Part shown: one piece after another, positions 31,500 through 33,338 of the stretch
How positions within the stretch are numbered: the first letter of the stretch is position 1
How the letters are laid out: every line of letters begins with the position of its first letter
Assembly (NCBI GenBank): GCA_016182045.1
Contig: JACOYE010000007.1
Coordinates: 1-34,120 of the forward strand
Direction of reading: 5' to 3'
DNA length: 34,120 bases
Origin: Candidatus Microgenomates bacterium
GTDB taxonomy: Bacteria; Patescibacteriota; Microgenomatia; Daviesbacterales; UBA10151
Notes under the pieces: generated by a model
Databases searched by the model: none
What the model was told of the DNA's origin: nothing
The model's input: the letters and a program-made list of their open reading frames with translations, nothing else
Translations under genes and position numbers: made by a program

Positions 31500-33338
31500 T
31501 TATTTTTTACCAATAAATTGATTCTTATACATTTCAATCAATTCTTTAACAGTTGTTGCATCTTCTGCTTTTGTATCAGCTTCTCTGAATTTAATCAAGC
31601 GCGGAAATCTCAGGGCAAAGCCCGGCTCTGACTCTTCTTTACCAGCCGTATGCACTGGGCTTCTGGTTATTTCATCTGCCAAAACTTCTATCACGATCTC
31701 TGGAGCAATCCAAACACTTGGTGTCAGTATAGAATTCACCCTGGCCGGCTTTTTATCTACTTTAATCTTATCAGCTCTTTTATGAATCTCTCTCCATTCT
31801 TCATCTGTTAAACCAGTACCAATCTTGGATACTGTCACGAATTCGTCTTTCTTATCATCATAAACACCTACGAGCAAAGCGCCGGCACCGAACGTAGCTC
31901 TTTTACCCCGACCAAAAACATAACCTAAAATTACGCAATCTATGGTATCTTTTAATCCGCCAGCTGGCGGACCTGCTGAGTGTCTTTTCAGTTTTACCCA
32001 GTTAAAATTCCTGGCCCCTGCCTCATATTTGGAATCAGGACGCTTGACCACCAACCCCTCCAAACCCTTGGAAATAGCATCATCCAAAAGTGTTTGCAAG
32101 CGCAAAGCATCATCTACCATCTCACCATATTCTGCCATCAGAGTTTCACCCTCCCCCAAAGTCTCTTTTAAAATCTCTAACCTCTTTTCTAAAGGTTCAT
32201 CAATTAAAGATTTGCCATTTTTATATAAAATATCAAACACAAAAGCCTTAAGAGGGATTTTTTTGGCCATCTCCTCAATTCCATATTTTCTTCTTCGCTG
32301 GGTTGTTTCCTGAAATGGTAAAAATTCATCAGAGTTCGGGTTAAACCCTATGGCTTCAGCATCCAAAATAGCACTCTTTACTTTAATTTGTTTTACTGCT
32401 CCATCCACAATCTCAGGGAACATAGGAGTGGTTTCTTCTAAATTGCGAGAAAATAACCTGACCACAACCCCGTCATCGCGAGGAGCGTTAGCGACGTGGC
32501 GATCTTTTTCTTTTTTTAGATTGCCACGCCCCTTCGGGGCTCGCAATGACGAGCCGGTACGATCTAAGTGAATTTGTACCCGAAATCCATCTAATTTTCT
32601 TTGGGCATTAACTTTTCCCAGTTTTTCTATCACTTTTTCAGCTGTTGGCAGCCTTTCAGCCAGCTCTGATCTAATAGGACGTCCTACAGTCACACTAAGT
32701 CCCTGAACTCCCTTAAGACCCTTATTCCATAAGGTTTCCCCAATTAACCCTAAATCAGAAACCCTGTTATATGCTCCCTCCAAAAGTGGTCTTTTAGATC
32801 TATCACCCAGTTTTGCCTTGGAGAATCCATCCAAAATAGTTGGGTCCCCAATCCCCAGTCTGGAGGTTCCCAGAGGAATTCTCACCAAGTGTTTGGCAGA
32901 CACCCCATCCATTTTTTGTAGTAAACCAGACAACATGGCAATCTTCTTCTCAACTGTACCTTCCCCAGTAAATTTGGCTATCTCAGTTAAAGTATTGAAA
33001 ACTTCTTCTACCCTTAATTCTTGATTCTTAATTCTTGATTCTTTTGCCAGCTTCTCCGCCACCTTACCAAGATCACCCACTTTACCATACTCTTTTAAAA
33101 CCTGTTCGCGCTCCAGCCCATAAGCTCTGGCCATAGCCGCAGCCACGCTTTTCTCTGCCATGCCAATTTCCAAAGGTTGGTAAAATGGGGCCACTCTTCC
33201 TTGAAGAAGATAACAAACTTGGGCAATCTCCGAAGCTTTAACCTGTTTAAAAAGCTGGGCAAGGATATCTATTAAAGCAAGTCTGGACGAGGTCTCTTCT
33301 AATTTTTCAAAATATTGTGCAAGTTTTGCAAATAACAT
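31500..33338 (-). CDS. ATP-dependent DNA ligase, archaeal/eukaryal (LIG1-like) type
   Basis: NAQRKLDGFRVQIH (motif I KxDG), LFSRNLEETTPMFPEI, KAFVFDILYKNG, EGLVVKRPDSKYEAGARNFNWVKLKR. Confidence 0.94.
   Translation of the reverse strand: MLFAKLAQYFEKLEETSSRLALIDILAQLFKQVKASEIAQVCYLLQGRVAPFYQPLEIGMAEKSVAAAMARAYGLEREQVLKEYGKVGDLGKVAEKLAKESRIKNQELRVEEVFNTLTEIAKFTGEGTVEKKIAMLSGLLQKMDGVSAKHLVRIPLGTSRLGIGDPTILDGFSKAKLGDRSKRPLLEGAYNRVSDLGLIGETLWNKGLKGVQGLSVTVGRPIRSELAERLPTAEKVIEKLGKVNAQRKLDGFRVQIHLDRTGSSLRAPKGRGNLKKEKDRHVANAPRDDGVVVRLFSRNLEETTPMFPEIVDGAVKQIKVKSAILDAEAIGFNPNSDEFLPFQETTQRRRKYGIEEMAKKIPLKAFVFDILYKNGKSLIDEPLEKRLEILKETLGEGETLMAEYGEMVDDALRLQTLLDDAISKGLEGLVVKRPDSKYEAGARNFNWVKLKRHSAGPPAGGLKDTIDCVILGYVFGRGKRATFGAGALLVGVYDDKKDEFVTVSKIGTGLTDEEWREIHKRADKIKVDKKPARVNSILTPSVWIAPEIVIEVLADEITRSPVHTAGKEESEPGFALRFPRLIKFREADTKAEDATTVKELIEMYKNQFIGKK
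32472..32550. repeat. 79-bp palindromic repeat (GTCATCGCGAG ... CTCGCAATGAC) in frame inside the ligase CDS
   Basis: gtcatcgcgaggagcgttagcgacgtggcgatcttt...agattgccacgccccttcggggctcgcaatgac; encodes SSLRAPKGRGNLKKEKDRHVANAPRDDG. Confidence 0.92.

Follow-up and report, generated by a model that had tools for sequence, protein, structure and literature searches.

Results

The host ligase gene and the insertion site

The window (the whole stretch of 34,120 nucleotides that was analysed) contains a gene for an ATP-dependent LIG1-like DNA ligase, whose product has the N-terminal, middle and C-terminal ligase domains recognised by Pfam, and whose best solved relatives in the PDB are archaeal ligases and human LIG1 (Table 1). 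A palindromic insert lies in frame and stop-free in this gene, where KLDGFRVQIH and VRLFSRN are joined by a hairpin turn, and close to the catalytic lysine motif. The insert coincides exactly with a break in the Pfam alignment, the ligase middle domain being matched only from profile position 38, and ligase residues 259-292 stand opposite a counterpart of four residues in 2hiv, the best-matching solved ligase. In most of the homologues read, the same turn comprises about 5 residues, against 8-12 in a few others and about 48 in one distant relative, where they form an unrelated expansion. The preliminary description of this DNA had placed a complete palindromic repeat between ligase motif I and the SRN strand, adding about 30 residues to a normally short turn; sequence and alignments support this placement, and the addition would amount to about 27 residues. 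That description had also named an insert common to homologous ligases as evidence against its reading. Among the homologous ligases read, the element was found at this site in no relative, and the closest homologue (G015, 79% identical) has the unrelated LERRLEVGGRRSDKVE there. The palindrome in the ligase gene is a real, lineage-specific, in-frame mobile element. The loops at the ligase site are variable in neighbouring genera, so that, judging from these comparisons, some of the added length could be of earlier origin.

Table 1. Coordinates of the host gene, the element and its parts, and the second paired copy in the window
Feature	Position	Strand	Basis and remarks
Host gene, ATP-dependent LIG1-like DNA ligase, 612 aa	31500..33338	-	ORF, Pfam, PDB relatives; insert at about residues 263-289
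Whole element with YGTC...GACR tags	32471..32551		C + 79 bp + G = 81 bp = 27 codons; two inverted REP-like units; read directly
Left unit GTCATCGCGAGGAGCGTTAGCGACGTGGCGATCT	32472..32505	+	34-mer identical to the copy within the P-type ATPase gene
T-rich loop separating both units	32506..32517		Read directly; unpaired in the predicted fold
Right unit (inverted) with internal CCCCTTCGGGG hairpin	32518..32550	-	Sequence and fold
Second paired copy in the window	27349..27418		Junction of pth and the inositol-phosphatase-like gene

Ligases of other genomes carry insertions of their own. The ligase of G014 has a GTCATTGCGAG-type insert at another, N-terminal site, near which the ligase of G022 has a different palindromic repeat. 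In the ligase of G009 (L035:1-2448), an intein follows directly after KYDGFR, about 10 residues from the site of the element (Intein_splicing, E = 5.8e-10). A separate palindrome of 15-16 bp, TCCGCC-N3/4-GGCGGA, occurs four times in the window (17656, 20149, 28214 and 31956), and that at 31956 falls, in frame, within the host ligase itself, encoding AGPPAGG where relatives have fewer residues.

Layout and predicted fold of the element

Read directly from the sequence, the element is a 79-bp palindromic pair (32472-32550) made up of two units of about 34 bp in inverted orientation. Its left half comprises GTCATCGCGAG (32472-32482), 13 bp and GTGGCGATCT (32496-32505), and these are followed by the 12-bp T-rich loop and a right half consisting of AGATTGCCAC (32518-32527), GCCCCTTCGGGG and CTCGCAATGAC (32540-32550). 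RNA of the gene strand is predicted to fold into one hairpin of -38.1 kcal/mol, compared with -18.2 for shuffled sequences (z = -7.15). Within a single unit, only ATTGC/GCAAT (~5 bp) pairs, flanking a long imperfect interior. The extent given earlier for the palindrome is exact, and the complementarity described for its outer stem and inner arms matches this layout.

Copies elsewhere in the genome

The motif GTCATYGCGAG has 37 matches in the 905-kb genome, against one for the reversed control. Twelve copies are intragenic and in frame, and these are distributed over 11 genes, assigned by Pfam and PDB comparisons: besides the ligase, they encode the CCA-adding enzyme, a P-type ATPase, UvrD (two copies), valyl-tRNA synthetase, MurE (one unit), two glycosyltransferases, a TPR membrane protein, an AAA kinase-like protein and one unassigned protein. 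When the CCA-adding enzyme and valyl-tRNA synthetase are aligned with solved structures, the alignment is broken at the insert (query 125-152 and 464-506, respectively). In the comparison of UvrD with PcrA, the first insert has no PcrA counterpart, and the second lies in a poorly aligned stretch. One glycosyltransferase gene (L064:802-2079, G000 C3) contains, besides a unit of the family, the peptide TVIPAKAGIH, which resembles a second palindromic repeat type.

The related copy at 27349-27418 had been described as intergenic. A copy is indeed present there, abutting the start of pth, but it is not purely intergenic, as the inositol-phosphatase-like ORF (27397-28194, minus strand; ...SASLRGTK*) takes its final codons from it. 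Within pth itself, CGTCATCCTGAACTAGTTTCAGGAT (window 27143-27167) forms a hairpin that matches the published stem and loop rule for CGTC REPs and may be a further in-frame insertion, although a relative has similar residues there (KSEIIK).

Frame, length and hydropathy of the inserts

The copies compared comprise 135 distinct ones, from five genomes and a few others. Fifty of them are in frame and flanked on both sides by 50 or more open codons; this count measures being in frame in a long ORF, since hosts outside this genome were mostly judged by their open frame. Seven candidates for frameshifted copies were inspected by eye, and each was judged to be a two-gene junction or non-coding DNA. 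The lengths of in-frame pairs are distributed 16/12/1 over the classes 0, 1 and 2 modulo 3, compared with 9/14/17 for intergenic pairs. RND is the reading of the downstream end in 26/29 in-frame pairs, compared with 38/76 of the stop-free readings that non-coding pairs would allow (p = 1.3e-4); by the same comparison, the HCE frame is used in 1/29 versus 27/76 (p = 4.6e-4), and the peptides are more hydrophilic (mean hydropathy -0.84 versus -0.32; p = 2.6e-4). The p-values serve as guides, as the tests were picked post hoc and some copies may share ancestry. The in-frame copies thus avoid one length class and one frame and read as more hydrophilic, which argues that the inserts are made into protein and screened at that level. 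When an intragenic copy is required to have 80 or more open codons to either side, four family genomes have 38 such copies among 108, and loci from other phyla 5 among 121, a contrast that is suggestive only, the two sets having been gathered with different patterns and locus lengths.

These data bear on two alternatives. An assembly chimera, or a misassembly at the repeat, might be considered, as the element is repeated in the genome; however, the repeat is only 79 bp long, the ligase frame continues on both sides, and a frame and hydropathy bias is not expected from misassembly. Because dozens of equivalent in-frame copies are present in independently assembled genomes, we regard this explanation as extremely improbable. 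Alternatively, the insert could be removed before the protein works, by RNA splicing, ribosome bypass or protein excision, for which the strong RNA hairpin and the true intein in the same region of the G009 ligase would offer some grounds. Removal at the RNA level or bypass would need neither a preserved frame nor the absence of stop codons nor hydrophilic readings, yet all three are seen; moreover, the 27 residues encode no splicing domain, and an Rfam search identified no RNA family and no intron at the element in the ligase gene. Removal is accordingly considered very improbable, and translation of the insert remains the most likely outcome, because the reading frame is kept and contains no stop codon.

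Probable essentiality of the ligase gene

The NAD-dependent ligase (PF01653) was detected neither in this genome nor in any of the 45 family genomes searched, in a search whose control gave a match in 11 of 14 known genomes. Because this enzyme is missing from all 45 family genomes, the interrupted ligase gene is, as far as gene content can tell, probably essential. No second ligase of either type was detected in the genome besides this one ATP-dependent ligase, the assembly being ~92% complete, so that a second one was possibly missed. The family as a whole apparently depends on an ATP-dependent ligase of archaeal/eukaryotic-like type, which is unusual among bacteria. Ribosomal protein L30 is likewise absent from 45/45 family genomes, whose sizes range from 0.7 to 1.4 Mb; we take these two features to suggest the candidate phyla radiation.

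The position of the insert near the catalytic lysine motif might be taken to mean that it has inactivated the ligase and that the gene is a decaying pseudogene. We consider this highly unlikely: the rest of the 612-aa frame is intact, the search for ligases of either type returned no other candidate to replace it, and essential single-copy genes such as that of valyl-tRNA synthetase have equivalent inserts.

Filled and empty sites, and the candidate mover

The UvrD orthologues provide a view of the same sites in different genera. At site 1, G000 has an insert and G020 a shorter unit. At site 2, inserts are present in G000, G015 and G042, G014 has a related-looking one, and the site is empty in G020, G008, G004, G010 and G003. 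One and the same UvrD loop (site 2) has palindromic inserts in several genera and is empty in others (L353, L354, L355, L358, L360). An attempt to reconstruct the empty site from UvrD was abandoned, as the loops are too divergent between genera for the boundaries to be fixed. Comparison with shuffled pairs revealed no excess of matching flanks at lengths of 1-8, and hence no sign of a target-site duplication.

Three Y1_Tnp genes are present in the genome, and their identity as RAYTs is that of candidates only. All three lie more than 1.5 kb from the nearest match to the motif, and no transposase gene was found near the copies checked. G042 has 90 matches to the motif and no detected Y1 gene. 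A Y1 (RAYT-like) transposase was therefore rejected as the mover: linkage is lacking, the correlation with copy number is weak (rho 0.30, p = 0.045), and the copy-rich G042 has none.

Spread of the 34-bp unit

Among the matches listed, the 34-bp unit occurs, by record title, in at least 11 phyla (Planctomycetota, Pseudomonadota, Bacteroidota, Spirochaetota, Bacillota, Chlorobiota, Nitrospirota, Chloroflexota, Zixibacteria, Actinomycetota and Nitrospinota), some of these records being metagenome bins that are possibly contaminated. Exact matches are also present in records of uncultured Rickettsiales. Within the phylum sampled, a similar 34-bp pattern was found in 6 of 294 genomes. Among open-licence papers, we found no published report of such elements in this lineage, and a text search of papers for the motif returned nothing relevant.

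Discussion

The element is of a known kind, resembling the Rickettsia palindromic elements (RPEs) and the CGTC-tagged REPs, and is here present in a new lineage with an unusually clear filter at the protein level. Rickettsia palindromic elements are frequent in-frame inserts, and it has been proposed that other prokaryotes may have similar ones (PMC10969869). Like RPEs, the elements studied here are short palindromic mobile repeats that lie in frame in many unrelated genes and are probably read through as an extra protein segment, with no dedicated transposase known. They differ in that the lineage is unrelated, and in that units of ~34 bp form pairs of 66-130 bp, compared with ~150 bp for RPEs. 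It should be noted that this likeness is drawn from published descriptions (PMC10969869, PMC3733652), and that the sequence matches concern records of uncultured Rickettsiales.

CGTC-tagged REPs were described by Di Nocera et al. 2013, who include RPE-4 and RPE-6 of Rickettsia conorii among them; they have no dedicated transposase, and each unit has a stem of 8-9 bp and a loop of 4-5 nt (PMC3733652). The present elements share with them the CGTC/TGTC tag (here YGTC, the outward base being A or G in 142/146 ends of paired copies), the head-to-head arrangement of pairs with the tags outside (73/135 distinct copies), AT at the start of the stem, intragenic copies and the lack of an adjacent transposase. 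In contrast to that rule, the unit stem is here only ~5 bp long with a long imperfect interior; in addition, the lineage is outside the list of Di Nocera et al., and about one third of the copies in four family genomes are intragenic. As in the REPIN/RAYT system (Bertels and Rainey 2011, PMC3116915), an inverted REP-like pair forms a hairpin and Y1-type transposase genes, here candidate RAYTs, are present in the genome, but the tag is YGTC rather than GTAG, and the repeat does not flank the Y1 genes. Unlike classical MITEs, the copies here are not accompanied by a target-site duplication.

The explanation that we favour, and hold to be very likely, is that, in this lineage, a mobile palindrome of the REP/RPE type entered the ligase gene, and that the insert, in frame and stop-free, is most likely translated while the ligase is still active. 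The element would move by means of an enzyme acting in trans, and insertions would probably land in many genes and frames. Selection would then purge those that break genes or yield unsuitable peptides, leaving the in-frame, hydrophilic readings. In the ligase, about 27 extra hydrophilic residues would enlarge a hairpin turn at the surface, and the enzyme would tolerate them.

It might be argued that the inserts are kept because they are useful changes to host proteins, for instance to repair enzymes, beyond being merely tolerated. Genes for replication and repair recur both here (ligase, UvrD twice) and in the work of Di Nocera et al. 2013, who reported intragenic REPs in several species, including in genes for DNA ligase and UvrD/Rep helicases, the ligase case being that of the GTAG-rich O. 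terrae (PMC3733652). Moreover, several genera have an insert in the same UvrD loop, and the G014 and G022 ligases have other palindromic inserts. Nevertheless, glycosyltransferases, an ATPase and a membrane protein are among the hosts as well, and tolerance alone predicts recurrence at one loop. A useful role is thus unlikely, although less so than the alternatives discussed above, and insertion followed by tolerance of suitable peptides is preferred.

Rickettsia is the best-known case of in-frame mobile palindromes, and the same state is now seen in an unrelated lineage with reduced genomes. The genes affected include the only detectable DNA ligase and the valyl-tRNA synthetase gene, and the frame and hydropathy filter can be measured. 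With similar repeats in frame at no fewer than 11 further places in this genome, essential proteins of this bacterial family would be taking up short 'junk' elements. The view that selfish DNA is a source of new protein segments becomes testable through the many host genes and the filled and empty sites. A broader idea, which we put forward as speculative and regard as rather doubtful, is that one unit, near-identical in at least 11 bacterial phyla, is moved by one widespread enzyme, and that, within this family of reduced genomes, it keeps supplying single-copy essential genes with new protein segments, repeatedly at loops such as that of UvrD. The question raised is what moves a 34-bp unit common to at least 11 phyla.

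Other features of the window

At 11147-11929, the window has about five tandem repeats of 144-150 bp, which probably encode a repeat protein. A 216-aa protein encoded on the minus strand (30766-31416) resembles 23S rRNA intervening-sequence proteins (PF05635, E = 6e-7, just under the curated cut-off) and contains NYKSYN-like repeats. Positions 1-934 (minus strand) hold a bacterial 16S rRNA gene, which is interrupted by the end of the window.
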